From Dicyema japonicum (Eukaryota; Dicyemida; Rhombozoa; Dicyemidae), in NCBI GenBank assembly GCA_011109175.1, contig RDEW01000017.1:558001-622000 (forward strand): a stretch of DNA of 64,000 bases. Reading direction: 5' to 3'. Within the stretch, counting starts at the first letter, position 1. Each line of letters begins with the position of its first letter. Made by a program: the position numbers and the translations under genes. Shown here in pieces: positions 1 to 59,304 of this stretch. The notes beneath the pieces were generated by a model, which saw nothing but the letters and a program-made list of their open reading frames with translations, ran no database searches and was not told the DNA's origin.

Positions 1-21
1 CTAACATTAGTAAAGGAGTAC

Positions 22-947
22 TTTTATCTCCAAGGATAGGTCGAGGAAGAAATCAAGGGTCATAGAAGTATTATTGCACTTTAAGCACTTTACTACAATA
101 AGATAGAGAAAAACTAGAGCTTTGAAGGTATCCTCCAAATATTCGATAAATTATATCTGAGTACTCACTCTTTGAATCCAAACTATAATTAATAAATTTA
201 ATATAAAAAAGGTTTAAAAAATTTTTAAATTAATTTAAAAATAACTTTTTAAAAGCAGAAATGGACGAGGTGTGCATACACTCTATAACAGCGAGAAGGA
301 ATTCGTGGGCGTCCTCCTGCCTATTAGGCATCAGATTTGAAGATATTTCTGCATGGATGACATAAAAATTACTGAAAATATTGTTTATGATATTTTGGGG
401 GTAAAACAATGTGTTCTTCTTGGCCTTTGAGATGGCAAAGTTTGAGTAATTCTTCATCTCACACAACATGCAAAAATTTCCTCGTATTTCGCCTAGTTAA
501 CCAAATAAAATAGATTTTAATACACTTGTGGCTTGTTTTTCATAATATAGTTCACAATCGGTGGGGTGGACTGTAAACATTGCAACACAGAATTGATGTA
601 GCAGGTATTTCTGTAGTTCATAAGTCCACACACAATGTTCTCTTTTACGTCATATTCCAAACGCAAGTCGTAGATAGTGTTTACTAGTCTCAAGTTGGTT
701 TGTTTTTTCTTCTTTTCTTTCACAATGCCTGAAAATTTAAATTTAATAAACTTCCATCGCCTAGGTCTACTACACGTGGGTAGATTTTAGTGAGGGAAGA
801 GGCTTTGAATTCTTCGTCTGGACTGGCCTCTGTGAATTCGATTGTAATGTTTGAGTAAATTGTATGGTGAGACTTTATGGGTTTGGTTGGTTTATCTCTT
901 ATTTCTGCTTTTAAGAATTTATCTAAGGATGTTTCCATCATTCTCAT
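22..947 (-). CDS. USP36/42-type ubiquitin hydrolase, N-terminal part
   Basis: Cysteine protease that removes ubiquitin. Exons 947-752, 728-526, 492-246, 182-115 and 92-22; introns of 23, 33, 63 and 22 nt, and a 21-nt intron filling bases 1-21, so the gene continues off the left edge. Seen: Cys box GLMNYRNTCYINSVLQCL with the catalytic Cys, followed by TPPIVNYI as in USP36/42; the QEDAHEFLL box; and the start of the zinc region, IFGGYLQSS then KCLKC, then DFFLDLSLEIK. About 262 codons are present, with roughly 80 before the Cys box. The conserved FCMLC frame is reached only if the A5 run at 472-476 (T5 on the coding strand) is one base longer. The NYRN where most USPs have NLGN is unusual. The His box lies outside the window. 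Start taken at the first Met, 947. USP class is secure; the 36/42 subfamily is likely. Confidence 0.85.
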
Positions 948-1231
948 GCACGTATCACCACGTGAACGAATTTTATTTAATGTAAATTAATATTAAATTA
1001 TTTTTATTATTTTAATTTATTTTTATTCATTTTTATTTAAATTATTTTTTAATTTTACTAAACTCAACCTATAATACCGCCCAAATTTTCATTTCTGAGT
1101 GCCTGAATTGTCAGGACCTGACGTGGACGTGGAGGATATCTGGTAGCGAATGTAACTTAAAGTAGGTTATATATTCTATACCTATTTAATATCAATAGAT
1201 TATTCAGGTTCGATAGTAAGTGTATCTGATC

Positions 1232-1280
1232 ATTTCCTACATAGATTTCTACTGAGCCCTTGATACATGAGAAAGAAGTT
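1232..1280 (-). repeat. SINE B / LINE F type 3' tail
   Basis: The reverse complement contains AACTTCTTTCTCATGTATC, close to the tail of SINE B (50.7 and 60.1 kb) and the end of LINE F (55.24-55.28 kb). The body is not recognisable here. Confidence 0.45.
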
Positions 1281-1736
1281 GACGACTAGTTCCATGGTAC
1301 CAGATAGACAAGTCCTACCGAAGTCCATTAAGAACCAGAGGAAAGTAATTAAACTTTCATTTTTTGCAGTTGTAGGAGCTTCCCGGCATGATCCAATGGA
1401 GCTATAATTTTTTGTTATTATTGTAGTACTGGAATCACGTGTAGGTCACGTGATACCGCGTTAATTTAACAAAGGAAGAAATGGGCTGACCATGTTGTGT
1501 CACCAACCACACATGAAATTGAACTGATGGCTGATGTAGCTGATTTTTTCACCCAATTTGATCTGACCTCTAGTTTATTTAATTAAAATATACTTGAATC
1601 ATAAGTTTGCCACTCATAAATAAAATTGCTATTTAAATTAAATTTATTGAACCTGTCAGGTAAAAAAACCAAACTAATTTATATTCATTAACGTCAAAAA
1701 TAATTAAATTAATCTATGAAGTTTGAATGGACAGAC

Positions 1737-1945
1737 TGTTTCCTCTGACAATAAGCATCGATAGTCTTCCTTAGATCCTTGGTGACCCTTTGGATCGTTG
1801 AGCCGATCCGATGGACTAGATCGTCCGCTTGTGGGCCAAGGATTCCTGACGTCTCAAAAGTAAATGATCCTCCGAAATGGTTCGGTGCTTCCTTCTCTTC
1901 TGATCCTCAACTTGCCTAGAAGCATGACCTGGGTTCGAAATTGAA
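1737..1945 (-). mobile_element. C-terminal fragment of YLDD reverse-transcriptase family
   Basis: The minus-strand translation contains FGGSFTFETSGILGP, then a helix-like stretch with IGSTIQRVTKD and ending in YCQRK. This is the conserved C-terminal block of the reverse-transcriptase family represented by the longer element at 16.4-18.7 kb. The related fragments at 50 kb read PLAVKISGS and FLSRLGNRI. No catalytic region remains, so it is a dead fragment. Confidence 0.6.
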
Positions 1946-2089
1946 GCGGTCGAAATTTTTCGGACATGTAGCGTCACAGAAAAAAAATAAAAATTAAAAA
2001 CGCATTTAATAAATATTTTTGTTTTTTTAAGTATTTTAAATGAAAGAAAAATTAAAAAACAAAATTAGAGTTATAGGGCCAAGCCTAAT

Positions 2090-2260
2090 GATTCTTTTAG
2101 CCACACTATCCCAATGATGCCACTGACCAAAGCTTTCTTTGAAATGTCCTTAACCAAAACTATCCTAGTGATGTCTCTGACCACTAACCTAACAACAACC
2201 CTACCAAAATTATCTAATGATGTTCCTTACCCTACCCAAATCTAATAATTCTTCAAAAGA
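2090..2260. repeat. Degenerate tandem repeat, unit about 50 bp
   Basis: Variants of ACTATCC(C/T)A(A/G)TGATG followed by CTGACCA and a run rich in ACCAAA recur about three times with decay. The flanks to 2480 are A-rich and simple. No coding frame spans it. Confidence 0.45.
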
Positions 2261-3065
2261 AAACATTCCTAAGAAGTCAACTAAAACTAACATAAAAATT
2301 CTCCTATAAAAATTATCTTAATGAATTCCCTAACGGAAGACAAACTTAACTATGTTATAACCAAAATTATCTTTAACAAAAACTAAAAGAAAAATTAATA
2401 AAATCAAATCCTTAACGGAGAAATAAAATAAATTCACAACGAACACGAAATCAATGCAGAAACGATCGATTAAATCGCAAAATATTAGCAGTTGAATACA
2501 TTCAGTTTTACAGAATCACTACTTATTTGGAGTACTATAGTCGTGAACATGGAGTAAAGGACTTGTTCTTCAGTTACAATCGGCTTCACAGGCGGTAGTT
2601 TATAAAAAATTTTTTAAGCTTCAATTAGATTGCTGAAATAAAAACCTGAAGGAGTCCACTTTAAAATGTGAGCTCTGGTAAACTTTTCATCGCAATCCGA
2701 CCAACTAGTCGAGTTGTTAGGTGGACACATGGCTAGGGTGGTGACGTATTGCGTTAAATGTCTTCATCTCAAAATCAATGTGACCCCTCGTTTCATTTCT
2801 CTTATGAGTAAACAAAATGATTAACTCAGGAGGCGGTGGATATACAAAGTTTCAGAACGAGGAAACGTCGGATACACTAAGCTCTGGGTGGGATATCAAA
2901 ATTAGTTTAATATGTAATCCTGAAAGGTACCAGTATTTTCCTCTTCTCTCCTCAGAGCAGACTTATCAAATTTTCTGGTAAATCTGTGCTTCTTTATTTC
3001 AAAACTTAGCTTCAAATATCTGTTAGAACATTAAGAAGACATTGGTGAAAGACATTGAAATTATT

Positions 3066-3185
3066 AGATTAAGGCTTGAAGAGTGACGCCGTCATCAATG
3101 AACATCTCACTGCAGAATCGGATCGTCTACAAAAGGATTCACACCCAACAAAAAGAAAAAAGAAGTGAAGAGCATTCCTTGTTCT
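3066..3185 (+). repeat. SINE A fragment (5' truncated)
   Basis: Contains GTGACGCCGTCATCAATGA, CACTGCAGAATCGGATCGTC and an AAAAAGAAAAAAGAAGTGAAG stretch of lysine-like codons, matching the body of the copies at 21.0, 33.3 and 58.7 kb. The tRNA-like head is missing. Confidence 0.6.
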
Positions 3186-3718
3186 CCCCTTTTCTCTTTA
3201 CCCAGTGGTCTTGGGGACAACAATAATGATTTCTTCAACTTTAGTCACAAAATTCTATCAGACTGACTAGAAAGCCCATTTCCGACATAAGTGTTTTTCA
3301 ACAAATCGATGGTACATTCTGCCACCAACGAACACACTTTCATAATTACCAATGTATCTCTACATATTCTTCATGACTTTTGGTTTCAATACCTCTTGAG
3401 TTCATCACCTTGTCTATGCTCACAAGAAGTAAGTTATCTGGTAGTCTTTCATCCATAATAATGCAAAGCAGGAACTTCCATTAATTACTTAGTCATACCA
3501 GATAAACCAAATAAAAGCTAAAATTGTTTCCATAGTAACAGATATTATGTCTTCAATAGCGACTAAGACGACTGATTATGATATAATTGTAAATTTAGGA
3601 TTAATCCAAGATTTATGGAGATAGAGTAATTCATAGAGGTCAAAATAACTTCCACAGACAAAGGAATCATATAAATGATCAAGGCATTCCCAAACCGTCC
3701 AAACCATTATTAGGCAAA

Positions 3719-5516
3719 ATGACCGAAGTTAGGAGTCCAAAATATGCCGGAGACGTTTTTCTGAACAGTGAGTGATATATCAGCTTCTTACTTATAGAGA
3801 ATGGTCATCACGTGGAAAAGCATTCAAACGAAAAAATGGTCGAGGATAAGAACGAAGAAATCCTCAATCTTAGAAAGGTTCGATAAAAGTTTACTTCCAA
3901 GAAAATCAATGAATTAAAGATAACAAATAACGAACTCAAAATGAAAGTTAGGCACTTGGAGGACGATGTAATATCTATTTAAGAAATATTTGTAGAAAAA
4001 AGAAGTGGAGGAGTTATACAAGCTCGAGAAAGTATAAATCTACCTTAACCTGTTTAGTCGAGTGAAAAAGGCTCAGTCGATAATGACCAAGTACTACTTC
4101 TTTTATCAAATAGCTCGGTCGTGAAATGAGGTACAAATTATGGAAGCTAAAAAACCTCTTGAGGGAAAAGGACGAACGAATACTGTAGAATTACTAAGAA
4201 ATAAAACATAGGAAGTTAGAATCTGATTCGAGGTTAGTAAACAACAAAGAACTGAAAATTCAATTCGAGGTTTACTACAACGAATGCCTCCGACTTAACA
4301 AAATCATAGAAGACCTAAATGGATACTCTGATGAGCACAGAAGTTAGTGATGGATTTCTATTATGCAGTGAAGAACGTGGAAAAATATTAGAGAAGTTGT
4401 CTGAGTCGCAAATCAACTTGATAAGAATAAGCAAGAGTTATGAAGAAGCCAAGAATGCTGCGGAAATTGCTAGAGAAGAAGTTAAAGCTAATATCGCTGA
4501 AAAAAATAAATTAAAAGAAAAAATTAGTTGATAAATATGTTTATTAAAGTTAATATCGAAGAAGAAAATAAGCGGTTAACCAAGAGAATAAATTTGGCGG
4601 TAATTTTTGTTAACATTAGACAAACGATGTGGTGCTAAATGCTGTCGAAGAAAATCTTTCTTCAAAATACCGTAAACTTGAAAATAATTTTAGGCAAAAA
4701 AATTCGTCTGCGAGGACCGCCGGAGGAAAGGGTTGTACTCTTGCAAGACAGGGAAATTACTTTGTTGAAAAAAATACAAGAAATGCAGGACAATATTAAC
4801 AGGCTTACATATATGCGAAATCAAGAAGGGTCTTTCCTCTTGTTAGTTTTAGCGTTTCCGAGAAAACCGTGGAAAAGAAGGACATTAAAGTGGCTGAATA
4901 CGTTGAGTATGATTAAATGTGCTAATTTAAAGCGATAAAGATTTGTATTTGGAAATAAACAAGAAAATAGATAATTTCGCTCGAAAGAGGGCATCTTTGG
5001 CAATTCAAAGAAATTGGAGAAAACACAGGGCCTCAGTGATTAAACAGGCAAGTCAAATTCGTCAATTTTAGAAAGAAAATCCAGGAATTTGAGAGAAAAA
5101 TCGCAGCCAAAAAGATTATTAAATTTTTAAAACAAGTTTCCAGAGACAGAAAAGTTAAAGTAATCGAAAATTAAAAAAGTTAGAATTTTAGAGAAAAATG
5201 CGCTGGAAAAACCATACTCAAAGCTTTACGCAAAAACGGTGAAATAGTTGCACGTGTTATTATTTTTAAGAAAAAGCGCGAAAAAAATAGCGGAAACACT
5301 CAGAAAACGTCTGATTTTTGTATCCTGGGTGAATAAATGCACATTTCGGACAGTACACAAGGCACTTTTGGAAATTTCTATTTTCAGGAAAGAGTAGACT
5401 CGTTTAGAAGAAATATTGCCGCCAAAACAATTCAGAAAAGTATTAGAAGATACAAGAGCCGAATGAATGAAGAGAAAGAGGTTTTTTTTGATGAACATGG
5501 CTTAGGATTGCGCTAG
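3719..5516 (+). CDS. Coiled-coil IQ-motif protein with about 14 micro-introns
   Basis: Not assigned to a named family. Introns placed at 3768-3797, 3878-3901, 3968-3995, 4032-4057, about 4118-4146, 4185-4211, 4347-4368, 4527-4549, 4600-4619, 4706-4730, 4830-4852, 4907-4932, 5160-5183 and 5353-5387 (20-35 nt each). The joined product is about 477 aa. The N-terminal two thirds is coiled coil (NEEILNLRKKINELK, YEEAKNAAEIAREE, DREITLLKKIQEMQ). The C-terminal third has IQ-like repeats: LAIQRNWRKHR, IAAKKIIKFLKQ, AGKTILKALRK and AAKTIQKSIRRYK. Such proteins usually bind calmodulin or light chains and often sit at centrosomes or cytoskeleton; that role is inferred. The N-terminal coil weakly recalls centrosomin CM1. 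Two +1 shifts are needed, at T4 (5066-5069) and A7 (5281-5287). An alternative last intron (5481-5505) would extend the end to 5599. Confidence 0.7.
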
Positions 5517-5599
5517 CATTGTGAATTGTCTATTCGGCCATAATCTACGGAATGCCAGAATCAATCATTTGGTTAAGCACTGTAACATTACTTTTGATT

Positions 5600-6347
5600 G
5601 ATTTAATTATTTTAATTTTTTGAAACAAAATTAAACTTCAAAAGTGTTATAAAATAGTAAGCACCTCGTGATTGAGACCATTCCCTTTCACGAACTCTTT
5701 CACCCATTACTCTTCTTAGATGTCCCTCCTTTTATTCTATCGACTATCAGATAACGTGTCGAAAGGAAAGTGATTTGGGCCTTAGAATCTCCGAGGTATT
5801 GGTTGCGAGGGCATGAAATGAAATATCTTCGTATTGTCGCGTATTTTTCTCTTTAAGGGCCGATCCTGGATGATTGGTTGTCGTTGTGAGTTTTGATAGG
5901 GAGAAGCCATCCACAAAATTGTCGTCCCAGGCAAGGTATTTCCACCCTTTTAAGGAAAAGATTTATGATAACAAATTGACCACGTGTGAAGAATGTGAAA
6001 AAATTGGGAATCAATTTCGATTTCCTTATGACTTTTGGAAAGAATAGATAAACTTAGTTAACAAAATAATAGTCATTCATCTTGACGCTAAGTTCCCTAT
6101 GCAGCCATGACCCGGTCATCAGCCACAGTTGCGCCATATGGAGAATAAACCTACGAAAAGCGAACCTAAAGATGATCGATGACTTCCAATCTATCATTCC
6201 TGTTACCTGACCAACCCTCTTTGAGGTTCTTTTAGGAAAACAAGAAGCAGCATTATTCCCACGATCATCAGCCTGTAACCTGAGCATGCAGAGGGTGTGG
6301 GAAATAACCTAATCACGAAAGGAACACCGACCAATGATAAGAATGCA
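5600..6347. other. Intergenic, nothing recognised
   Basis: Short open frames only, none with recognisable motifs and no SINE or LINE match seen. Confidence 0.4.
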
Positions 6348-6660: not shown

Positions 6661-6721
6661 TTTGATGTTGAAAATCTCTGGCTTCGAGTTTAACAAGATA
6701 CAATGAACTACAGAGCTTATC

Positions 6722-6724
6722 TTA

Positions 6725-6756
<32 letters not shown>

Positions 6757-6757
6757 A
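6722..6757. repeat. (TTA/ATT)n microsatellite at LINE 3' end
   Basis: A run of TTATTATTATT lies about 30 bp beyond the stop of the minus-strand LINE ORF, as expected of the simple-repeat tails of RTE- and CR1-like LINEs. Confidence 0.75.
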
Positions 6758-6789
6758 AGCAACTACATAGAATCATATAAACTATAATT

Positions 6790-9543
6790 CTATTCGTGCC
6801 GCGTCTGAACAATCCTCTTAATTAGCCTTTCCCATCCCCTCCTGTCCGATGCCAAGTGCCGCAGACTACTAAGGTCTTCACCGTCCTTTAGTAGTCTGGT
6901 TACTGATCTCAGGTCACCATTAAGGACTTCCGGAAGAGTTATTCTTGGACGACCTCTGAACTTCTCCCCTGACGTATCGAAGTATTCTTCCATGACGACG
7001 TTTGCTGGCGTGTCTTGTTCCAATCTGAGAATATGGCCAAACAATCTCCAGCGAGCCTTCATGATCATGGTGCTCAGAGGTCCGGAACCGCATCTTCTAT
7101 ATAAATTTTCACTCCCTACACGCATTGGCCACTTTAGTCCCAAGAGAGACCGAAGTTGCCTTCTGTGAAAGGAGTCAAGGTTTTGTTCGTCCGTTTTCGA
7201 AATTCCCCACGTCCCAGAGTTGTATGTTAGTATGGGCCTCACGAACGCCTCATACAACCTGAGTCGGAGTGATGGCCCGACCGAGCATTTTCTTATCCAA
7301 CATTTCATAAGTTTTTGCATAGTAACCGTAGATAACAATTTTCTTCTTGCAATGTCTTCGGAGTCTCCGAGAAGAGAGCCAAGCTTTACGGTCTTCCTCC
7401 AACATTCACTATTGCGTAGTTCCATCCGCTTAATTTCAACAATATCCGTTTTCTGAACATTCAGTGATAGACACCATTTGGCCAAACAGCCTGATGCAAC
7501 CTCCAAGAGACGTAAGAGTGCTTCTTTGTCAGTCGAGATAAAGTCAACATCATCGGCATACACGATCTCCATAATATCATTGTTGTAATACTTCCGGAGG
7601 TCTTGCAGAGCCGATTCAAGGTATATAGCAAACAATACTGGGGAAAGGGAATCTCCTTGGGGTGTGCCCACTGTTGAAATAATTTCCCGTGACAAACATT
7701 TTCCAATACGCACTCGTAACCTCGTGTTTGATAAGAGTATCCGTATCAGAATAACCGAGTCCTTATCCAGGAAACTTTCAAGCACTTCAATGAGTTTTCC
7801 CCGACGGACAGTGTCGAAAGCTCTGGTCAGATCAATTCCAAGGATAGTCTTTGAGCTCCGGAATCTTTGTTGAATAGCACATTGCCATCTATGGCACCAT
7901 ACTACATCAGCCGTTGATCTCCCTGTCCTAAAACCACTCTGGCTCTGGGCCAAGTACCCGTCCACCGGCTCTTGGATCCGATTAAGAGTAATTAGGGCAA
8001 GGATCTTCCTTAAGGTGTTTAGAAGGATGACAGGGCGCAGGTTTTCAACTGGCCCAGGGGGTTTATTACCTTTTTGAACTGGTACTAGTATCCCCTTTCC
8101 AATTTCTGAAAAGTCCTTGTTTTCTATCATGTCATTCAGCAATTTTGAGAGTTTATCTGCAAGTTCTGGAGGGCCAAATTTTAGCAATTCAGATGGTATA
8201 TTATCTGGTCCTGGAGAGCGCCCAGATTTAAGTTTCCTTATCGCCATGCAAACCTCCTCCGGTGAAATGATCCGTTCAAGTGTTGTGTTCTTAGGCGTGA
8301 AATCTGATTTTTCTCCTTTTACAAAGAACAGTTGTTCAATATGCGATGCTATGAACTCTGTCTGTTCTGCAACATTTCCTATTGTTTTTCCATTTCTGTC
8401 ATGCAAAATAAGTTTCACTGATTGGCTCTTCCTCCGTATTAGTCGTATAGCCATGAATGTCGCAGCATTGTCTTTAAGGTTTTCTACCTCTCTGATCTTG
8501 CTTTCCAACTGACTAGTGTGATGTAGTCTGTTTAGGAGTTTGATTTTTCTCTCAATTTGCCTTCGTTCTTGTTTCAGTTTGCAAACAGTCTGAGGATCGA
8601 CAGTATTTTCGGATCTAAGCCTTAAGTTCTTCTGCAAATTCAATAGGGCTGACACTTCCGGGTGACGCTGACTGCTATGGGGTTTAAGTTCCCCCAGATG
8701 TTTGTCAGCAGCGGAAATGATCCCTCTCCTAGTTTCGAGCCATGCCTTTCCTGGTGAAAGATCCGATGCCGTATTATTAATTGAATCCGATACACATTCT
8801 TTATAGTCTGCTTGTACTTTTGGTGAAGAGCCCAAGAGTTCAGTCATATACCTTCTTGATCGCGTGGAATCTCCACCACGATGTGTTTGGAAGAAGCATC
8901 TTCTATTAGTTATCCCGTAGAGGAACTCCTCCGCAGTTGGACCAAGTCTTAAGCTGAATCTTGCTGACACAATTTTGTGATCACTGTTAACAGTTAGTCC
9001 TCCATAAGATCTCGAGTCCCGTAAGAGAGATTTGTCTTTTACTCGACACAGAATATAATCGATCTGATTATAAATCCTTATCAGATTTCCGGTGGTCGAT
9101 AGTCTAGTGCCCATCCACGTTGTCTTGTGGCGTGCGGAATGTTGGAATTGAGTATTGCACAGGAATAAATCAAAGGATTCGCAGAAATATGCCAGAGCAG
9201 TACCAGAATAGTTCCTGATCCCCCTTCCATGTGGTCCAATAAAACGTTCGTGTCCTTGATGTACCCCAGCTTTAGCATTCCAATCACCAGCGATAAAGAG
9301 GAACGATGAAAACTTCAGAGAAGATACGACCTCGACAAGTTCTTCGTAGAAAACGTCCAATTCCTCTGGGTTTTTGGAAACACGGCCACTATGTGGGGCG
9401 TACACGTTCACAATGGAAATTAGTTGCCTGGACTTCCCTTTGGGTCCAATAAGAAATTGAATAACACATATCCTGTCATCAATTTTCCAATATCGATGTA
9501 ATACTGGGGAGCAAATTCTTGTAAACAGCGAAACCCTGTCCAT
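6790..9543 (-). CDS. LINE A-1 endonuclease-reverse transcriptase ORF (917 aa)
   Basis: Copies LINE RNA into DNA at a nicked target. Residues 1-215 are the rest of an APE-like endonuclease: GDWNAKAG (86-93), IDYILCR (161-167) and SDHK (187-190), the catalytic Asn/Asp and His positions of the fold. RT at about 435-690: SGRSPGPDNIPSELL, SGFRTGRSTADVVW, GIDLTRAFDTVRR, GTPQGDSLSPVLF and the catalytic YADD at 662-665. The C-terminal domain has RRQLRSLLGLKWP and ARWRLFGHILR, typical of RTE-like elements. No stop within 917 codons, so this is the youngest LINE here. The first Met is internal: homologous sequence continues upstream in another frame beyond a stop. Family-level call is sure; the exact clade is not. 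Confidence 0.9.
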   Translation of the reverse strand: MDRVSLFTRICSPVLHRYWKIDDRICVIQFLIGPKGKSRQLISIVNVYAPHSGRVSKNPEELDVFYEELVEVVSSLKFSSFLFIAGDWNAKAGVHQGHERFIGPHGRGIRNYSGTALAYFCESFDLFLCNTQFQHSARHKTTWMGTRLSTTGNLIRIYNQIDYILCRVKDKSLLRDSRSYGGLTVNSDHKIVSARFSLRLGPTAEEFLYGITNRRCFFQTHRGGDSTRSRRYMTELLGSSPKVQADYKECVSDSINNTASDLSPGKAWLETRRGIISAADKHLGELKPHSSQRHPEVSALLNLQKNLRLRSENTVDPQTVCKLKQERRQIERKIKLLNRLHHTSQLESKIREVENLKDNAATFMAIRLIRRKSQSVKLILHDRNGKTIGNVAEQTEFIASHIEQLFFVKGEKSDFTPKNTTLERIISPEEVCMAIRKLKSGRSPGPDNIPSELLKFGPPELADKLSKLLNDMIENKDFSEIGKGILVPVQKGNKPPGPVENLRPVILLNTLRKILALITLNRIQEPVDGYLAQSQSGFRTGRSTADVVWCHRWQCAIQQRFRSSKTILGIDLTRAFDTVRRGKLIEVLESFLDKDSVILIRILLSNTRLRVRIGKCLSREIISTVGTPQGDSLSPVLFAIYLESALQDLRKYYNNDIMEIVYADDVDFISTDKEALLRLLEVASGCLAKWCLSLNVQKTDIVEIKRMELRNSECWRKTVKLGSLLGDSEDIARRKLLSTVTMQKLMKCWIRKCSVGPSLRLRLYEAFVRPILTYNSGTWGISKTDEQNLDSFHRRQLRSLLGLKWPMRVGSENLYRRCGSGPLSTMIMKARWRLFGHILRLEQDTPANVVMEEYFDTSGEKFRGRPRITLPEVLNGDLRSVTRLLKDGEDLSSLRHLASDRRGWERLIKRIVQTRHE

Positions 9544-11290: not shown

Positions 11291-11294
11291 CTGA

Positions 11295-22089: not shown

Positions 22090-23815
22090 ACTCCGTTCGG
22101 CAGTAATAGTCACCTTGATCTAAGGTGACCGCCGACAACTCTCCCACATCACCATGCAGTACTCTTCTGTCACGGAACTGTATGGGTTGAGTGGAGTAAC
22201 ACTAAGGTAAAATATGGTGACACGTCGTCGAGACCAGTATTCAATAACTGTAAAAATCAATTGTTCAGAGATAGTAAAACCCCGACTAACGGAGAAAAAA
22301 ATTAAAAAGTTCACATAATTGGACCAATTTCGGATGGATAATAACAGATAACATGATTTATTCGCAAAACCCCAACTAACTAAACAAGGTAAGAGCCTTT
22401 TACTAAAGAGGAAAGTCAAGATTTGAGGTCGTCTATATCGGGGCACTCTCATGAGACACCGTATGTCTCTTCTCCGTAAAAAGCCCCAATTACAATGCGA
22501 GTTTCTACAAGCAATGTAATAAATCACCGATTCTTCTCGTTTTTCTTTCGTATTCGTCATCAACTTCAGATGCTAAATCCAATCCATGTGCTTCAATTTA
22601 GTTTGACGAATTTTCTAGATAACAGATAACATGATTTATTCGCAAAAACCCCAACTAACTAAACAGCATGATAAATTCGCAAAACCCCAACTAACTAAAC
22701 AAGGTAAGAGCCATTAACTAAAGAGGAAAGCCAAGATTTGGGGTCGTCTATATCGGGGCACTCTCATGAGACACCGTATGTCTCTTCTCCGTAAAAAGCC
22801 CCAATTACAATGCGAGTTTCCACAAGCAATGTAATAAATCACCATTCTTCTCGTTTTTCTTTCGTATTCGTCATCAATTTCAGATGCTAAATCCAATCCA
22901 TGTGCTTCAATTTAGTTTCATTTATAATTAGAACTTCCATCTGGATCGTGCTGGCTATAGCAACCAGCACTGAGGCCCGTTTCCGAAGAGAACGGGCATT
23001 AATCAGGGTTATCCTGACTACTTCTGGTTTTTTCGGTGGCTGCCCTCTCTTCTTAAGAGCACCACTCTCTTCTCTGTGTTGAAGCTTCTACTGTTTCTTT
23101 TTTAGAAGGTTTCTTATTATATGTCGTATTCCAGCCAGTCTGCCCATACATTCTAAACTCTGACTTTAATTTCTTATTCGTTCCAGTTTTGGAAACTTCA
23201 CTTTCTCCATTATGGGCATTTTCTCGTTTTAGAAATAATTTTCCATTCGATTCTTTCCTTTTTTGGTCAATTTTGTTTTGCAATGTTAGCTTCAACAGCC
23301 TTGGGGCATCTTCCATAATTTAGTTTCGTTTATAATTAGAACTTTTATCTGGATCGTGCTGGCTATAGCAACCAGCACTGAGGCCCGTTTCCAAAGAGAA
23401 CGGGCATTAATCAGGGTTATCCTGACTACTTCTGGTTTTTTCGGTGGCTGCCCTCTCTTCTTAAGAGCACCACTCTCTTCTCTGTGTTGAAGCTTCTTTT
23501 TTAGAAGGTTTCTTATTATATGTCGTATTCCAGCCAGTCTGCCCATACATTCTAAACTCTGACTTTAATTTCTTATTAGTTCCAGTTTTGGAAACTTCAC
23601 TTTCTCCATTATGGGCATTTTCTCGTTTTAGAAATAATTTTCCATTCGATTCTTTCCTTTTTTGGTCAATTTTGTTTTTCTTCGCAATGTTAGCTTCAAC
23701 AGCCTTGGGCATCTTCCATAATTTAGTTTCGTTTATAATTAGAACTTCCATCTGGATCGTGCTGGCTATAGCAACCAGCACTGAGGCCCGTTTCCGAAGA
23801 GAACGGTGATTATTT
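22090..23815 (-). mobile_element. Tandemly duplicated LINE endonuclease region
   Basis: Minus strand. 23815-22912 holds two nearly identical units of about 400 bp and part of a third; each encodes a basic linker (KKRGQPPKKPEVVRITLINA), the opening endonuclease motif NARSLWKRASVLVAIAST and IINETKLWKMP. 22918-22342 holds two copies of the next segment, about 220-270 bp each, one frame of which reads ETRIVIGAFYGEETYG, an EN strand followed by the YG motif. Duplicates differ by a few percent, so the duplication is recent compared with the LINE decay around it. No RT follows. Confidence 0.65.
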
Positions 23816-28095: not shown

Positions 28096-28452
28096 ATGAC
28101 GTCTGTGCTTGACGGCTATAAAAATCGTATGCTATAATAAGTAAAACGTAGAGAAAGTGTGCATAGTGACATCAGATGGTAGAATAATAATAGTAAATAC
28201 GAATTTGTAATTTACTAAGGGTACTATGAGAGGCTGCGATCAGACCATAAATGTGGTTCTGACAGACAGCTTTGAGAGAATATACAGCACGAATAATGAT
28301 GTCGAAGAGATTGTCTTAGGCCTTAATATCATCCGTGGTGACAATGTGTATGTTTGGCTCTGTATGTTAGTGCTATCATTGGGAGAGTTGACGAAGAGGC
28401 TGAATTCCGTAGTGATGTTCGAGCAGAACCACTGAATGCTATAATTCATTGA
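28096..28452 (+). CDS. LSM8: LSM8, U6 snRNA-associated Sm-like protein
   Basis: Subunit of the nuclear LSM2-8 ring that binds the U-rich 3' end of U6 snRNA for splicing. Four exons; introns 28127-28151 (25 nt), 28193-28219 (27 nt) and 28348-28370 (23 nt). The joined CDS is 282 nt, exactly 93 aa plus stop; human LSM8 has 96. It starts MTSVLDGYKNQKV; Sm1 motif VTSDGRIIIGTMRGCDQTIN, Sm2 LGLNIIRGDNVAIIG, and the LSM8-specific end DVRAEPLNAIIH before TGA. No correction needed. The upstream 100 bp contain a short direct repeat (AATGTTTGAA(T/C)ATAT(C/T)TCCACTTAA twice). Nothing but SINE debris lies on either side. Confidence 0.96.
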
Positions 28453-33860: not shown

Positions 33861-35157
33861 ATGAACACTGTGGGTGTTTATCTAACAATTACAATTCTTT
33901 TGCTCTCCCTTTCGTTGGTTTTCGGTTTCAATGAAGTTAAGAAAAGAGGTTAACCGAGTCTATCTAATGGTAGGATTGGATGCATTGGTTGGGACATCCC
34001 CTATTCCCGAGAATCGATCGCAATGGATGACTTCGCGTTTCTACATCGCTCTGGCGAGAGTAATAATGACTGATCTATTCCTTCTCTTGGTGATCCTCAC
34101 TTTTTATGGTAGTGCGTCGTGAATGCTCTCTACAGTGTTTTCGTGTTGGTTGGCGTTGTCCTTTACAAACTTGTCTTCTCCTCCCATATTTCCAATCATG
34201 AAAAAATGGTTTCGCTCTTAGTTTACTCCCAGGAACTGAAAAACAAGTTCCAACGGATGGTCTTCAAGTCCCTGGTTTTTGTTTTTGCGGTCTTAAATCT
34301 GGAGACCATTTTTGAGATTCTTTTTTGGATATTCTGGCTTTCCAGCATTCAGTTCACCCGACTTTTTGTTCTCCTCTGCAAACTGAGATATGTAAGGGTT
34401 TTACTCAGCTCAGAATTCACCAAACTCAACTCTTACCCATCATCGACTTCTCTTCCTCATATCCCTGACTATGGCCTTCACTATGGTGACAATTTTAATA
34501 TCCCTCCTCACTTCCTTGACCGTTTCATTGGCCGCTGGGATCTTCATGGGATCCGAGGTGGTCATTTCTTACCAACCCAGGCTATAATTCTGTTCTTACA
34601 GACCCTCAAACTGCTCATTCGATGCCTTGCAGTCCGTTCTGACAGGGATGCTGCTTTAAGTGATATCGGCTTTTCCCAAATTCAGATTTTTGTGAAGATT
34701 CTACACACTATACACATGATGGTGGTCTTTAAACTCATCCAAGGCATACACAGAGGGGATCTTGTCGGTAATCAACACTGTTTTAGCGAGTTCTCTGCTC
34801 AGATTAATCCAAAAGTTTGTGATAAATTTGAAAGTATGTCTCCACCGTTATTCCACGGAGCTGGCTATTCATAAACAGTTATCGTTTGTTTAATACAGTC
34901 TTGTGAGCGTCGGGGATGACGGGGAGCCTCTGAACTGTCCGATTTGCCTGGAGGATGTCGAATGTGAGGAGGCATCACAGTTGCCCTGCAAGCACATATT
35001 TCACCGAAAGTGCATTCTAACGTGGTTTAACCGTGATTTGTCTTGTCCGTTGTGTCGACAGGATGTTATTCCTAAAATGGTGAATGAGGGTCCTGTGGGG
35101 GATGTGCACAGAATTAATGGGTATATGTCGAGGATTTTTGGTTTTACTTTGTCTTAA
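33861..35157 (+). CDS. AMFR: AMFR/gp78-like ER E3 ubiquitin ligase
   Basis: Polytopic ER-membrane RING ligase of ER-associated degradation. Eight exons; introns 33925-33946, 34090-34112, 34209-34232, 34392-34413, 34558-34580, 34722-34743 and 34878-34898 (21-24 nt). The joined CDS is 1140 nt, 379 aa, with no correction. Segments matching gp78 in order: FLLLCVVNALYSVFVLVG (TM), NHEKMELKNKFQRMVF, VLNLETIFEILFWIFWL, LCKLRY, a TM run LLFLISLTMAFTMVTIL, GIFMGSEAIILFLQTLK and LHTIHMMAYTEGILSV. RING-H2 at residues 306-345: CPIC ... CKHIFHRKC ... CPLC. Human AMFR has 643 aa with a CUE domain and VCP-binding end; neither is seen before the stop at 35157. A 24-nt gap at about 35137-35160 could splice past this stop into further exons, so the end is provisional. 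Confidence 0.9.
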
Positions 35158-42731: not shown

Positions 42732-43306
42732 ATGGATAACAGAAATGTCGGAATGTTTAACTTTCCGTCATATATGGGAGGGAATGTCTCAAATATCAAT
42801 CAAACGGGAGCTCCAATGGCGTCTCCTTATCTCAATGTAAATCCTCGGCATCTCAACTACGAACCGGAGTTTATTCTCCCTCAGGGAGCCAAGAGACAAA
42901 GAGGACGTTTGGAAATGTCATTTACCCAAATTGGAGGGTCTATAATTACAGGGGCTACCTTTGGAGGGATGAAGGGACTTGTTGGAGGATTGAACCAGGC
43001 TAAAGGAGAGACTGGAAAAGTGATGAGGGTAACCGTCGTCAATCACATTGCCAAAATGGGGGCTTCCTACGCTCAGTCTCTGGATGTGTGGCCCTACTTT
43101 ACAGCACTTTAGGGAGCATCATGTTTTACTCTCGTGATGTAGAGGATCAATGGAATACTCTGGGGGCAGGAGTCGCAACTGGTACTATCTTCCGGTCCCC
43201 GCGTGGAATAAAAGGATCCTTGATTGGAGGGACAGTTGGTGGTATCATTGCCTTGGCTGTTGTCGGATGGAATCATTTTGATGATATCCGTAGTTCTATA
43301 TTCTGA
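42732..43306 (+). CDS. TIMM23: TIMM23, inner-membrane import channel subunit
   Basis: Central subunit of the TIM23 presequence translocase. ATG at 42732; the tail matches Tim23: SPYLNVNPRHL, EPEFILPQGAKRQRGRLEM, FTQIGGSIITGATFGGMKGL, then ALLYSTLGSIMFYSRD and GSLIGGTVGGIIALAV. Four hydrophobic spans with the Tim17/22/23 glycine pattern. No introns, unlike its neighbours. One base is missing at GG 43082-43083: a third G gives SLGCVALLYS, aligned to human without gap, and a 191-aa product (human 209). Without it the frame ends at 43112. It is either a sequencing error or a decayed intronless retrocopy. LINE C-3 ends 130 bp upstream. Confidence 0.9.
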
Positions 43307-47374: not shown

Positions 47375-48434
47375 TCACAATTTGCTTAAAACTTCCCCCA
47401 ATTCTTTCATTTTTGAAGCATAATGAGAGACAATGACTCCAGATTTATGTTGTGGATTATCAAAGTCATTATAGTTGACTTTATTCATGTCAAAATCCAC
47501 CATCTGAGCTCCAGTAGCCCTCACAATGGCATTGGGGGCGCATAAATCCCATTTTTTATTGTCGTTTTGTGAATGTAAAAGTCTGTGTCCCCCCTCAACA
47601 CACTCAAAGTCTTAAACCCTAGTAAATTAGTAAAACCACCCCAAACCGCTTCCCCCTGTCTTTATCACTTTAACATTCAAGGCTACTTTTCCGAAAGCCT
47701 CAATCACCTTGGTCTCTGATTCGTTTGAGTGAGATCTCGACATCATTACTCTCTGTGGAGTTCCCTCGGGGACAAATAGGATATTACTATTCCTTTTTCC
47801 ATCCAAAGTAATGTACCCCCAATCTAAGCAATCAGAAAATGAACAACATAATCTTCTGTCAGGTACTTCAAATGGATTTATCAAAATTCCAATAATTGGT
47901 TCTCCCTCGTGTACAACACATCCCATCACGCTAACACATTTTAGTAAATCACCCCCCTCTAGTTATATTTCAAAAGATTCAACCTGTGAATTCCTGTGTG
48001 GCATCTAAGGGATCTATCCAAATCTGAAGACTTTTGTGAGAATAAAATTCTTCAGGAATATCAATGAATGGACAAAACGTGGGTTCTGAATTGGGTTGGA
48101 CCTCTTTGACATGTTCCTCTTCAGTGATCACCTTGATTTTATTTTTGAATGGTAGTGAGGATAAAATATGATTATTTGAGTCCAAATCAACAGAAGTAAC
48201 TGGCTGGGCAAATCCATCAGAGGGTTCTTTGGAATCCTTCGTAAATGTCTTGGAGTTGAGGACCTGTTTTGATCCTGCTTCAAGCGCATTTAAAAGTGAG
48301 CACAAAAGTTGTCTGTTACTGACTTCGTTTACTTCATACTTAAAGTTGGAGGCTGAAACTTTCAATAAAAGTGCGATTGCTATCAATGCCAGTATTTTAA
48401 ACTTTTTGCTCTTAAATATATTCGAAAATAACAT
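47375..48434 (-). CDS. BPNT2: BPNT2/gPAPP, Golgi 3'-phosphoadenosine phosphatase
   Basis: Hydrolyses PAP, the by-product of Golgi sulfotransferases, to AMP. Exons 48434-47984, 47958-47647 and 47618-47375; introns 25 and 28 nt. The N-terminus (LALIAIALLLKVSAS) is a signal anchor, as in the Golgi paralogue and unlike cytosolic BPNT1. Metal-site motifs of the inositol-phosphatase superfamily: TEEEH, WIDPLDATQEFTEG (joined over intron 1) and KKWDLCAPNAIVRATG. Also SRSHSNES and KTGGSGFKTLS across intron 2. Predicted 335 aa (human 359). The A6 run at 47552-47557 is one base too short: seven are needed to pass from HKTTI to KKWDLC in frame. With no other damage in the CDS, a base-call error is likelier than decay. 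Confidence 0.93.
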
Positions 48435-50385: not shown

Positions 50386-50494
50386 AATATTTAAAGAAAA
50401 TTAATATGAACTTTTTGTACATAAAATTCTTTGCATTTTAACTGCAACCTAATTTACCATTAATTTGTAGATTAATTTTTAATACCTCTCCTCT

Positions 50495-53885: not shown

Positions 53886-55235
53886 AAGCAGGAAGAAAAG
53901 TGGATACAAGAACACACCTTTAATTTATCATTTGGTATCACACTAGACTTCGGAGACATAAGGTAATTCAAGTAACTCATGGCATCTGCTTAACTATTGT
54001 CGACCATCTGTAAATTACTCTTCAATTATTCTAATAAGAAGGTCCTCATTTTTCTAATAATCCTGGATATACCTGAAAGAAGTTTTATCCAGTTATCCAG
54101 GTCGGAGTGGGACATATTCTTTTCAAGTATCCGCCATCGTGGGAACCCCTCCACTGGAATAGGGAAGAGAGTGGAGCCTCTTTTTCGATGCTAGCCATGC
54201 ATTGGGCTTCTCTTGAGTTAGGTGGAGCCAATGACGCCTATAAATTAATGTTGAGTCCCTCAAGGCCATCCAGAAACAATATCTGATGGATATGATAAAT
54301 TTCACATCATTACATTCTGTGCTCTTCAAACGTGTGGAGGAACCTAATGTCGATCTGGAAACCTCTAGTGGGTGACTAGCGGCTGGAAATAACAGTTCAA
54401 GGATGAAATTTTATTCTGCTTATTGCAAAATAGGAACTTGTTTTTGTCATGTATGAATCGTTGTGCAATCATTGCAAAAAAACAAGTAGACTGTTGATCA
54501 TTGGGCCACTCTGTGGTAATGTTGAACAGTGATTACGTCTGAAGACACAATGAAGAAGTCAAATGTTTACATCTGCACTCTGCAGTATATTTGGATTAAA
54601 AAAGTGAAAAGGTTGAAAGGGCATTCGGTTCAGTCAATATTATCCACACATTTTGCTGAGATACGAGTTAATACATCGAATTTGACTGAAACAAATTCAA
54701 CAAACCTGATATTTTTATGAATGACAAGATAAAAATGGAATAACTCTTATCTAAGTGGGCACTCTTAGGATGCACAAACAAGTTGAGGTCGACAAGTGCC
54801 TCAAGTATGACCTCATTGTGGAAGAATTTTTTCTTCTTATGACTGCCAAGTAAAGATTATCCCGCTGGTTATGGAGCTATCTTGGAATGCCTAATGAATT
54901 ATATGGATAAGATATCTATTGAAGGAGCAACAAGGACTTACATAAGATTAGTTGTGTTGAAAAGGACCCTTGAAGGCATGCTAATTGAACACAAGCACCG
55001 GATGAAAGTCTCTGATAGAGATTTTCTATCTGCTTCCGGCAGTTTGTGGAGCTGACATGCACTTGCCGTGAGGATACTCCATTGAATGCTAACAGAGATT
55101 ATTTACTGACATTGATGTATAATAAAAGTTAGTTGGCGGCAAACCCTTCTTCTATGAGAAGGAGTGATTACTAGGACTGAAATTGTCCTATTTAGGAGAA
55201 AAAAATAGGACATTGTCCTATTTAATTAATTTAAT
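53886..55235. other. Intergenic; SINE B fragment at 54165-54260
   Basis: GAGTTAGGTGGAGCCAATGA and CGCCTATAAATT (minus-oriented SINE B core) at about 54215. The 63-codon frame at 54529-54720 has no motif. Otherwise nothing. Confidence 0.4.
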
Positions 55236-56066
55236 TTATTAACCCCTGATACACCGAGAAAGAAGTTAATTAGCAGACAAAAAAGGTCTGATAGTGCCTA
55301 GGTGGGTTGCCCGTGTTTTCTCGGTCGTTATTATAGCGTGCTTCCTAGCAGACACACTTGACCCAGCTATCAGGATGTCGTGCATTCGCATTAGGATACG
55401 CTCACTTAGTTGGACTACTCCACACAGTCCACGGCCGAATTTATCACGGGGTAAATATAGTCTCTCCTTGTTGGCTGCCAGCACATGGACATGGTTCTCT
55501 CTGAGTACTCCACGGATCATAACATCCATCTCATCATACTCCTTGGGCTCAAACTCCACAACACCTATGTAGTAGTTTAGCAGGGAGACAGCATACTCAT
55601 TTAATGCTAGGAACAAATTCCTTGCATTTAGAGACGTCTTACACAATAACGCTGCTCTTTTACGGATGCCTTTAGTAATTTGTCGCTTTGTCTCAGGCAT
55701 TATAAGGGACTTTGAAGATTCGGTAACACACAGATACTTATATCCTTCGTGTTCCTCTAGGACTCTTACTAACTCGCTACATACTTGCGCGTTAGTCGCA
55801 GACTTTGAATAATTCAAATCTAGCCCTATACTCTCAAAGAATTCCCTGGCACAGACCCCCATGGAGTAGAGCTCCTCGGCTGTTCGAGCATACATCTTCA
55901 GGTCATCGATAAAAAGAAGGTGATTTGTACTGAAACAGACCCCTTCACAATGAACTGGTATTTGCTCAAACCGGTCATTGAGGCGGCGACTCAATGGCTC
56001 CAAACAGAGAACAAAGAGTAGCGGAGACATGCTATCCCCCTGAAGGATCCCCCTCTTGAGTTTCAA
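55236..56066 (-). mobile_element. LINE F RT fragment (FIDD) with SINE-like tail
   Basis: Minus-strand ORF 56066-55266, 266 aa, open from its 5' edge: KRGILQGDSMSPLLFVLCLE, HLLFIDDLKMYARTAEEL (FIDD in place of YADD) and LDLNYSKSATN. The C-terminal part (KGIRKRAALLCKTSLNARNL, YIGVVEFEPKEYDEMD) belongs to the RT family with the M/I-DD-L-K motif, seen in many invertebrates; clade not assigned. After the stop comes AACTTCTTTCTCGGTGTATC and AGGGGTTAATAAATTAA, the same 3' end as SINE B. Five-prime truncated at RT motif 4, uninterrupted otherwise, hence fairly young. Confidence 0.8.
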
Positions 56067-56145
56067 AATTTAGTCATTATTAAAATAAAAAATTTTAATT
56101 TTAATTAATTTATTATTCATTTATTTAAAATAAATAAATAAATAA

Positions 56146-58104
56146 ATGAGATTAAGTAGAAATCAAAGGTTAAATATAATAAAAAAGAAGGGACTAACTA
56201 TTTGGTTTACAGGTTTCAACTTGGAGTCATTTAAGGACTCTCTGGTTCTGGTAAATCAACCTTGTCTTTTACGATCGAAAAAATACTTATAAATTCAGGA
56301 GTCAGTGTATATTCAATCGACGGGGATATTTTAAGAAACGGAATAAATAAAGATCTCGGTTTTACGGCAGAAAACAGGGTCGAAAATATTCGTCGTGTGG
56401 CAGAGATCTCCAAGCTTTTCGTGGAATCAGGACACATTGTATTGAGCAGCTTTATCAGCCCATTTTCCCAAGTTATAAAACATTTAACAAATAGGACCGA
56501 GAGAATGCCCGAAAACTGCATAAAAACGACGAAATGGATTTCTACGAAATTTATGTCAAGGCCTCGTTAGAGGAATGTGAGAGAAGAGATGTTAAGGGAC
56601 TTTACAAGAAGGCCAGATCTGGAGAAATAACTGGTCTAGTGGAATTTTTATTCAGATTTTACTGGTGTCCATCAGACATACCAAATTCCAGACTGTCCAG
56701 ATTTGGTGATTGATACAGAAAGCAATAATATCGACTTTTGTGTTAATCAAATTATTACTTTTCTCATTGATAAAGTTTTTGGATGTAAAATTGTAGGCAA
56801 ATTTGATCCATCTGAATTTAAAGAATTTTAGAAATTTTATGGATGTTAATATTCGCAAAGTTATTTTATGATAAAATTAGATCGATTGTGAATGGCTTCA
56901 AGTAATCTCGGAGGGATGGTGTCGGCCTCTTAGTGGATTCATGACCGAGGACCAACTTCTAGAATGTCTCCACTTTGGGACAGTCACCGTTGACGGTAAT
57001 TTTTGACATGATGTAAGGTTTGGTTGCCAACCAAACGGTCCCCATTCTTCTGCCTGTCCAAACGAAGGTGGTAGAAACCATTAACAACTTCGACGGGATA
57101 AGGCTTATCTATGAAGGGAAGGAGGTAGGCACAATGACTGGATTCACTATATTTCCCAACCGAAAGGAAGAGAGAGCCTGCAGACTTTTTGGTTGCCGTT
57201 CAAAATTACACCCATCGATTAAAGTGAAGTAACAGCTTATTGTAGATAATTGAAGAAGAAGGGGATTGGCTGATTGGAGGCCCAGTCAAGTCGATTCAAA
57301 AAATTGTGTGGAATGATGGACTCGATAGCTACAGACTAGCACCAAGTGAGCTTAAAAGTATTTTTAAATCAAAAAATGTAATTAATTATTGTAAATTAAG
57401 GCTGATGCTGTTATCGCTTTCCAGCTGAGAAATCCAATTCATAACGGACATGCATTATTGATGAGGGAAGCTATTAATGATGTGAAGGCACGTGGATACA
57501 AGAACCCAGTTCTTTTGGTACATCCTCTGGGTTTTAATTTCGAGTTACTTTAGGTGGTTGGACTAAAGAGGACGACATTCCTCTTGCGGTGAGAATGAAA
57601 CAGCATCAGGCCTGTCTTGAAGATGGAGTCCTTGACCCAGATATAACAATTTTGGCTATTTTCCCTTCCCCCATGATGTATGCAGGGCCAAAGGAGGTAC
57701 TAGGAGAAAGATAATTAAGGTTCAATGGCACTGCCGAAGTAGAATCGAGGCTGGAGTCACATTCTATATTGTCGGAAGAGATCCTGCTGGAATCAGCCAC
57801 CCAGATATTAATTGCGACCTCTATGACCCTACTCACGGAGCACGAGTTACCTTTATGAGATATTAAGGTTCTGAAAATGGCTCGGAATTTGGAGCGTGTC
57901 GAGATACTGCCGTTCAAAGTGGCTGCCTTTAACAAAAAATCCAATAAAATGGAATTTTATGACCAAAACCGACATGATGATTATGTATTTATTTCAGGGA
58001 CGAAAATGAGACATTTTGCAAAATACGACATCAGTCCTCCAGATGGGTTTATGTCCCCCAAAGCCTGGAATGTTATTTCTAATTATTATAAAGTCTTATC
58101 CTAA
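56146..58104 (+). CDS. PAPSS: PAPSS, bifunctional PAPS synthetase, complete
   Basis: Makes the sulfate donor PAPS: ATP sulfurylase forms APS, APS kinase phosphorylates it. Twelve exons; introns 56213-56235, 56472-56494, 56634-56655, 56775-56796, 56860-56880, 56996-57017, 57224-57245, 57378-57400, 57531-57553, 57697-57719 and 57846-57867, all 21-23 nt. Joined CDS 1713 nt, 570 aa, no correction (human 624). The start MRLSRNQR matches the vertebrate SRNKR. Kinase at residues 1-190: P-loop [58 protein letters not shown]. Sulfurylase C-terminal: [44 protein letters not shown] with the HNGH site, [40 protein letters not shown] and ISGTKMR. Kinase first, as in animals. A (TAAA)n run and LINE F sit directly upstream. 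Confidence 0.98.
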
Positions 58105-58134
58105 CTAATCTAATTGGTCTTAACTCATTAATTT

Positions 58135-58235
58135 AAAGCAATGGTCTCCCACTTTTTTTTTGCTGCAGACCAGTAAGCGTTAGACAATTTTACAGCGACC
58201 CGATGTTGAGAAATCACAGCACGGGTCACAAGACA
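58135..58235. mobile_element. hAT-like terminal sequence
   Basis: GCAATGGTCTCCCACTTTTT, TGCTGCAGACCAGTAAGCG and CAGCGACCCGATG resemble ends of hAT-type nonautonomous elements (CARNGGTYYCCCA... and GCGACCC). The partner inverted repeat was not found. Confidence 0.35.
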
Positions 58236-58249
58236 CACAAACATAATTA

Positions 58250-58560
58250 CAACACTAGTGACTAAGCTTAAAAGCCGTATGACTAAAGAGTACAAACTGA
58301 GATTTAGAAATTTAAAAACTGCTCGCATATATGCAAACAGAGTGCCTCTGGAGTCTGTTCGGCCGCTGAGAAGTAGAGACGTCTGGTTCCCTTGCATCTG
58401 CGACGCTGGAATTCTGAGTCGTCTAGGGAATCGGATTTATACATGATCAGAAGATCCCATGAGTGCTGCTAGTTATCCGAGCGAATCTTGCTCGTTATCC
58501 TGAGGGAATAGCCACACAGTCAGGGCGGCCGCTATATTCCCATCAATTTTCTCACTTTTG
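58250..58560 (+). mobile_element. YLDD-element C-terminus and 3' UTR fragment
   Basis: Plus frame 58258-58446 ends ILSRLGNRIYT before TGA, like FLSRLGNRIST at 50.09 kb. The following GGAATAGCCACACAGTCAGG and GCGGCCGCTATAT repeat the 11.82-kb block, which identifies that block as this family's 3' end. Confidence 0.6.
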
Positions 58561-58609
58561 AATTTCAAGTTAATCATTTTTTTCAATTTTGTTGGTTTTT
58601 CGCAATATC

Positions 58610-58840
58610 ACCAAGGCTTGTAGTAAATGTAACGAGTACCAGGTAAAGGCCTAATTGCCCTAGTTCGAATTTCGCTGCTGTACATTCCAGCTAAAGGTTA
58701 CACTCATCTACGACGCTTTGACTTGACGATTGACGCCGTCATCAGTGATCATTTCACTGCGGAACTGGATCGTCTATAAAAAAACTCAAAAACAGCAAAA
58801 GGAAAAAAGTGTGTCCTGTCTGGATGGAGCTGTAGGTAAT
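58610..58840 (+). repeat. SINE A copy
   Basis: CTAGTTCGAATTTCGCTGC (B box), ATCTACGACGC, TTGACGCCGTCATCAGTGAT and CACTGCGGAACTGGATCGTC, then a lysine-codon stretch and TGGAGCTGTAGGTAATATGG. In plus orientation it leads straight into the orphan frame at 58841, as the 21-kb copy leads into LINE A. Confidence 0.65.
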
Positions 58841-59304
58841 ATGGCTCTGTGTAAAGTGGAGTATTATGATTATTGTCGCCAGAAAATAAAGTTTAAGTTT
58901 ACAAACTGTTCTTTGATGGAGGTCGTTGGGACGTCAATGAGTATTTCGTCAGTTTTAGCCATTATAAATTATCTAGTTGAACAAAAACCAAAGGTCTCGT
59001 TGAAGACTAACAAGTCATCAAAACACTGGCAATCATAAATATCTAAAAGTCACACAGATGATATTTAGCCTTGATATTACTACATTCTTCTTTAATTCGA
59101 TCCAATCTAACTGACCTTCAGAAGACTGTTAAAGAACTTGTAATACTTTATGGCTAAGTTCAGAAGCCCGCGAAACCAAGTGGTTCCTCAGTTGATTTTG
59201 ACAGCTATTGTGAGGGGCAACGCTTTGACGACTATATGAATCGGAATGAACATTTAAACTCAAATTTGGAATTTCATTTTAATCAAATTTTTCTAGAAGA
59301 GTAG
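58841..59304 (+). CDS. Orphan spliced gene candidate
   Basis: Not recognised. First frame 58841-59038 begins MALCKVEYYDYCRQKI and contains SSVLAIINYLVEQKPK. A second part, about 59063-59139, reads LILLHSSLIRSNLTDLQK; a 24-nt intron (59140-59163) joins it in frame to KPAKPSGSSVDFDSYCEGQR, FDDYMNRNEHLNSNLEF and the stop TAG at 59304. The 24-nt GT...AG gap and the Asp/Glu-rich end resemble the host genes rather than LINE debris. The link between the first and second parts (about 59020-59062) is not solved. The start may come from the SINE A/LINE A leader (ATGGCTCT also opens the LINE A-3 frame), so the first frame could be repeat-derived. Confidence 0.4.

Follow-up and report, generated by a model that had tools for sequence, protein, structure and literature searches.

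Very short introns of uniform length were described in Dicyema in 2007 (26.2 +/- 1.9 in 16 introns, at conserved positions; PMC2222250). In 2008, 41 dicyemid introns were surveyed and gave a donor of 0.5 bits at positions +3 to +6, called the weakest known; no branch signal was detected (PMC2483917). Short dicyemid introns were reported genome-wide in 2019 (PMC6543705, PMC6736024), with a median of 27 in Dicyema sp. (PMC6543705). Here we analyze a window of 64,000 nucleotides (nt), bases 558001-622000 of contig C68 in an assembly of 64.67 Mb and 191 contigs, in which short GT..AG gaps interrupt protein-coding genes. The original prediction had read these gaps as ultra-short introns of a dicyemid and had noted that introns near 20-30 nt have been described in these animals and in a few protists; for dicyemids this has been in print since 2007 (PMC2222250). 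The ultra-short intron finding is correct in substance and already known. To it we add an adenine that recurs at a restricted place within the introns.

Results

Short gaps in the genes of the window

Introns were called with a purpose-written spliced protein-to-DNA aligner and human reference proteins entered by hand. The aligner accepts only GT..AG ends and introns of at most 100-120 nt; longer introns would escape it. The core observation, that removal of the GT..AG gaps restores alignment with known protein families, was borne out by protein alignment. About 43 gaps in six genes had been predicted, of which homology verified 22 in four genes; the remainder, and the other two genes, did not gain this support. 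PAPSS (bifunctional PAPS synthase) and LSM8 were recovered exactly as predicted, with 11 introns and a coding sequence of 1713 nt and with 3 introns and a coding sequence of 282 nt, respectively. The identity of PAPSS was given by spliced alignment to human PAPSS1, by the Pfam domains APS_kinase, PUA_2 and ATP-sulfurylase and by PDB matches to PAPSS1/2. For the AMFR-like gene seven introns and 1140 nt had been predicted; homology supports six of these introns, and the seventh, of 19 nt at the 5' end, is unsupported. The gene may start either at ATG 33861 with the 19-nt first intron or at ATG 33931 without it, and from the latter the six aligned introns (22-24 nt) give a coding sequence of 1089 nt. 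Exactly one of the 5' combinations tried gives 1140 nt (ATG 33861, intron 33918-33936), and no seventh intron added at the 3' side yielded that length. The features are as follows, with introns from spliced alignment unless stated otherwise.

56146..58104, + strand: PAPSS gene, 11 introns of 21-23 nt, coding sequence 1713 nt
56213..56235, + strand: PAPSS intron 1, 23 nt
56472..56494, + strand: PAPSS intron 2, 23 nt
56634..56655, + strand: PAPSS intron 3, 22 nt
56775..56796, + strand: PAPSS intron 4, 22 nt
56860..56880, + strand: PAPSS intron 5, 21 nt
56996..57017, + strand: PAPSS intron 6, 22 nt
57224..57245, + strand: PAPSS intron 7, 22 nt
57378..57400, + strand: PAPSS intron 8, 23 nt
57531..57553, + strand: PAPSS intron 9, 23 nt
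57697..57719, + strand: PAPSS intron 10, 23 nt
57846..57867, + strand: PAPSS intron 11, 22 nt
28096..28452, + strand: LSM8 gene, coding sequence 282 nt (spliced alignment; Pfam LSM)
28127..28151, + strand: LSM8 intron 1, 25 nt
28193..28219, + strand: LSM8 intron 2, 27 nt
28348..28370, + strand: LSM8 intron 3, 23 nt
33861..35157, + strand: AMFR-like RING E3 ligase gene, 5' end uncertain (alignment to human AMFR; zf-RING_2)
33918..33936, + strand: possible first AMFR-like intron, 19 nt (from coding-sequence length only; homology neither supports nor excludes it)
34090..34112, + strand: AMFR-like intron, 23 nt
34209..34232, + strand: AMFR-like intron, 24 nt
34392..34413, + strand: AMFR-like intron, 22 nt (16 nt in the aligner, same acceptor; donor shifted by eye to GTAAGG)
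34558..34580, + strand: AMFR-like intron, 23 nt
34722..34743, + strand: AMFR-like intron, 22 nt
34884..34907, + strand: AMFR-like intron, 24 nt
47375..48434, - strand: BPNT/IMPAD1-like phosphatase gene, 2 introns (Pfam Inositol_P, gene model)
47959..47983, - strand: BPNT-like intron 1, 25 nt
47611..47646, - strand: BPNT-like intron 2, 36 nt (a closer AG is possible by eye)

The choice of GT..AG ends was controlled by forcing each of the 256 possible dinucleotide end pairs on 16 genes, namely PAPSS, LSM8, the BPNT-like gene and 13 actin/Arp loci. GT..AG gave the highest summed spliced-alignment score (19997, versus 19026 for the next pair). By gene, it came first in 11, tied with another pair in 2 and was outscored in 3. 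When an ab initio gene finder was run on 55 loci outside the window, 29 of 44 GT..AG introns fell at 20-30 nt, versus 8 of 36, 8 of 36 and 2 of 32 introns for three decoy end pairs at the same loci.

Intron lengths and positions across the assembly

A larger intron set was assembled from the window genes, 13 actin/Arp loci (used of 30 cut out, one per gene, picked by eye), 20 kinase loci taken from 90 matches and 40 Ras-family regions from 97 matches, all in the same assembly. Rows dropped before counting were 9 of 67 in the actin/window set, 3 of 95 kinase introns and 7 of 116 Ras introns, and repeats were counted once. For the sets of 66 and 145 introns three dropped rows (PAPSS, LSM8 and L003) were put back by hand and the six AMFR-like introns were added by hand. 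In the actin copies L002, L006, L013, L024 and L026 frame breaks lie inside conserved stretches, which suggests assembly indels or pseudogenes.

The 259 distinct introns have a median length of 24 nt. Most (225) measure 21-27 nt, 232 are shorter than 30 nt, 240 fall at 20-35 nt and only 2 are below 21 nt. Genes of the ERK, JNK and p38 types, assigned by best-scoring reference, have introns of equal phase in three common alignment columns. Four further columns carry introns in two of the three types, and 34 kinase intron positions are not shared. Actin introns stand at residues 41, 113 and 191 in many loci; at one position, some are still similar between close paralogs and others are not. Because MAPK-type paralogs, and likewise actin paralogs, have introns at common positions, we infer that these are old introns which became shorter without moving. 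The protein alignments, the 256-pair control and the shared paralog positions support spliceosomal introns of about 20-30 nt. Actin copies of equal match score are paired on one contig at C94 965106-1002834 and at C137 1183609-1198513, which suggests recent duplications.

Introns with lengths divisible by three (3n) carried in-frame stops in 62 of 81 cases, versus 48.4 +/- 4.2 in shuffles, and other lengths showed no excess. We do not claim this excess as a property of the introns, as it is uneven among gene sets (Ras 29/36 versus 19.9, actin/PAPSS set 13/14 versus 10.2, kinases 12/20 versus 10.3) and a bias of the alignment against stop-free 3n introns is possible.

Splice signals and a positional adenine

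Donor positions +3 to +6 carry 0.52 bits in 66 introns, 0.61 bits in the 145 introns of at most 45 nt and 0.75 bits in all 259. On the exon side, positions -3 to -1 prefer A, A and G at 0.18-0.26 bits each. Acceptors in the 259 introns are TAG (151), AAG (55), CAG (40) and GAG (13). A word search for a branch motif in the 145 introns gave nothing clearly above shuffles (CTRAY 9/145 versus 6.6 +/- 2.3, YTRAY 37/145 versus 30.5 +/- 4.9, TAAY 47/145 versus 39.8 +/- 4.8). Matching to TACTAAC in the first set peaked with its A at -7 (2.42 of 7 positions versus 2.03 shuffled, z 3.8).

Counted from the donor, adenine is over-represented at about +15 to +18, which places it 7-9 nt from the intron end. 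The peak moves with intron length when counted from the 3' end and stays near +15 to +18 when counted from the donor, being at +15 in introns of 21 nt, at +16 in those of 22 nt and at +17 in those of 23 and 24 nt. Introns of 21-23 nt number 109; A stands at -7 in 76 of them and at -7 or -8 in 100. The resulting adenine rule held in 83 of 122 introns of the first set, a circular count as the rule was derived there. In the second set, the Ras family, it held in 48 of 88 introns, versus 26.1 +/- 4.2 in shuffles with a maximum of 41 in 5000. Depending on length, A occupies the rule position in a fraction of 0.46-0.73 of true introns, versus 0.27-0.32 of equal-length GT..AG decoys and 0.34-0.43 of AT-rich decoys. 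G is nearly absent from the site (0.03-0.04), and T is slightly over-represented at the second base before the site and at the first base after it. The general branch pattern is yUnAy. We hold with high confidence that the positional adenine is a real signal.

Spliceosomal RNAs

The small nuclear RNAs U1, U2, U11, U12 and U6atac were searched for, and only the best candidates were scored. U2 gave 25 matches, 22 of them above the Rfam cut-off, and the GUGUAGUA pairing segment is intact in the best copies. None of 11 U1 matches exceeded the Rfam cut-off (best 69.0 versus 69.5), and the ACUUACCUG end is intact in the best. The minor-spliceosome RNAs gave one match each, all above their Rfam cut-offs: U12 at C68:163471-163599 (85.4 bits), U6atac at C34:237761-237858 (37.0 bits, cut-off 33) and U11 at C1:1591391-1591510 (67.6 bits, cut-off 39). 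What does a minor spliceosome still do in so small a genome? By eye, 10 of 16 U2 copies (loci L032-L037 and L039-L042) share an element about 45-75 bases upstream, which was not seen by eye at U12 or at three U1 copies.

Animal affinity

A search with the spliced PAPSS product gave named matches that were all metazoan except for one plant-labelled entry, among the 120 matches listed. A Hox gene of the assembly has RLTGP at positions 64-68 from the homeodomain start, a Lox5-type tail. In lophotrochozoans and flatworms the signature of Lox5 at these positions is KLTGP (PMC5431905), and D. japonicum is reported to have two Lox5-like genes and 16 homeobox genes (PMC6736024). The predicted dicyemid source is supported, short of proof, by the Lox5-type tail, the metazoan PAPSS matches, intron length, donor weakness and a similar assembly size and GC content. 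The homeodomain count given below does not fit, and we consider a dicyemid source likely.

Other features of the window

Reverse-transcriptase-type frames are numerous in the window, with host genes sparse between them, and the output of ab initio gene finding there was mostly such frames. Two of four frames tested matched RVT_1 and a third gave a weak endonuclease match. On the minus strand at 6790-9543 lies one open frame of 917 amino acids with an RVT_1 reverse-transcriptase domain, probably a long interspersed nuclear element (LINE). At 22909-23806 a unit of 399 bases is repeated in tandem (2.2 copies, 95% match). Two further host genes were placed:

42732..43306, + strand: TIMM23 gene, frame break near 43080 (two Pfam Tim17 profile parts adjoin)
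517..938, - strand: 5' portion of a gene for a ubiquitin protease, continuing beyond the window (Pfam UCH positions 1-33 of 254)

An intron was rejected as the cause of the TIMM23 frame change because one frame matches positions 3-56 of the Tim17 profile, below the Pfam cut-off, and the other continues directly with positions 57-111. The one-base break may be an assembly indel or belong to a decayed gene. In the ubiquitin protease part one 35-nt intron was predicted by the ab initio model.

Discussion

The gaps are almost certainly genuine introns, judging from the alignments and their controls. A different view would make them assembly indels or decayed pseudogenes with GT..AG ends arising by chance in AT-rich DNA. 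Some frame breaks are indeed not introns, as in TIMM23 of the window, and in five actin copies the gap itself looks like conserved coding sequence (6 of 9 set-aside rows). For the gaps at large this view is extremely improbable: GT..AG tops the 256 end pairs, the length peak is narrow and not reproduced by decoy ends, and paralogs share intron positions. As to the source, another fast-evolving spiralian with independently shortened introns would fit the 67 homeodomain matches found (per exon, some partial), compared with 16 homeobox genes described from D. japonicum. Such a source is improbable, as a resemblance to dicyemids is seen in assembly size (64.7 Mb versus 65-67.5 Mb for the D. japonicum genome; PMC6736024), GC content (37.7% in the window versus 36.7%), reverse-transcriptase frames, length of introns and weakness of donors, and the orthonectid median of 57 bp (PMC6543705) exceeds the length seen here. 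Several observations nevertheless weigh against our interpretation, among them the homeodomain count just given. The junctions come from DNA-protein alignment with hand-entered references, their boundaries being set under the aligner's GT..AG constraint, and GT..AG was beaten in the BPNT-like gene, L002 and L024 (3 of 16 genes). Recent paralogs do not supply independent introns, and among actin introns at one position some are visibly related. The donor value climbs from 0.52 to 0.75 bits with set size. For introns of 25 nt the first set prefers A at +17 and the second at +18, and single-site models anchored at the 5' and 3' ends fit the adenine equally well (log-likelihood gains of 40.2 and 39.0, versus at most 5.4 and 4.2, respectively, in 30 shuffles). 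Leaving the exact spacing mechanism aside, we still regard it as very likely that the ultra-short introns are real and that the animal is dicyemid-like.

The positional adenine is probably the branch point. It could also be a by-product, for example of an A/T pattern selected near a short acceptor or of a protein-binding preference. That would agree with an occupancy of 46-73% by length, far from 100%, with the 34-43% already reached by AT-rich decoys, and with the equal fit of the two anchors. We think a by-product rather unlikely in view of the enrichment in two gene sets, the near absence of G and the flanking T excess as in yUnAy; the introns of Stentor share this design (PMC9505925). A further alternative is that some introns are removed by the minor spliceosome, sub-30-nt U12-type introns being present. 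It draws on the single above-cut-off matches to U11, U12 and U6atac and on the exclusion of introns shorter than 30 base pairs (bp) from a published survey of U12-type introns (PMC10639083). It is nonetheless unlikely, as the GT-type consensus pattern (GTATCCTT donor, CTTRAC branch site) gave 19 matches versus 32 in a reversed control, and no U12-type intron was identified by this search with 8 of 17 distinct places read, none of which had convincing coding context. None of the 259 introns starts with GTATCC. The surroundings of the minor-pattern matches at L119 and L124 look, by eye, like reverse-transcriptase sequence.

We propose that the gaps are introns of the U2 type and that their source is a spiralian, most likely a dicyemid, in which older introns would have shrunk to about the smallest size that the spliceosome handles. 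U1 and U2 of ordinary type would act on these minimum-length introns. The branch nucleotide would be the adenine at +15 to +18, and the intron would be recognised by spacing. A need for about 14 nt before the branch A and 6 nt after it would set the floor at 21 nt. Remaining specificity may come from the weak preference for A/A/G on the exon side, from AT-richness and from the TAG or AAG end. Both the role of the adenine as branch and spacing as what is read are what we infer from the sequences. The fuller proposition, of animal ultra-short U2-type introns set by spacing with almost no sequence code, together with retained minor-spliceosome RNAs whose targets may lie below 30 bp, is in our judgement evenly balanced. 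For the splicing of introns of 21-25 nt with almost no sequence signal, the positional adenine provides a concrete rule that can be tested in an animal. The rule also lets gene finders score ultra-short introns. That gene finders with a minimum intron above 30 nt would fragment such genes, as was foreseen, is a reasonable expectation given the survey cutoff cited above.

Comparison with known systems

The 15-16 nt introns of Stentor coeruleus resemble those described here in having GT..AG ends, no strong branch consensus and a conserved U2 pairing site (PMC9505925). The Stentor branch adenosine is fixed at the 10th or 11th base, and here A is also at a fixed distance. In contrast, Stentor introns are shorter, with the adenosine at -6, and occupancy at the 10th base is 91%, whereas it is lower here (48/88 in the second gene family). 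Stentor is reported to have yielded no RNAs of the minor spliceosome (PMC9505925), whereas U11, U12 and U6atac are present here. The approximately 25-nt introns of Paramecium share the length class and an in-frame stop excess in 3n introns (PMC5014332). However, Paramecium is a ciliate, and the 3n excess here is uneven and possibly due to alignment bias. Orthonectid introns have a median of 57 bp versus 24 here, a value obtained with an aligner ceiling of 100-120 nt (PMC6543705). Relative to described U12-type introns, the three minor-spliceosome RNAs are present here but no such intron was identified by the pattern search (PMC10639083). Dicyemid introns (D. acuticephalum, D. japonicum and Dicyema sp.) have the same GT..AG ends, length class, weak donor, lack of a branch motif by word search and conserved positions (here, among paralogs); the present introns are slightly shorter (median 24). 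In the literature searched, as far as its available text extends, no report of a positional adenine in dicyemid introns was found, and this signal goes beyond the dicyemid intron reports covered by that search.

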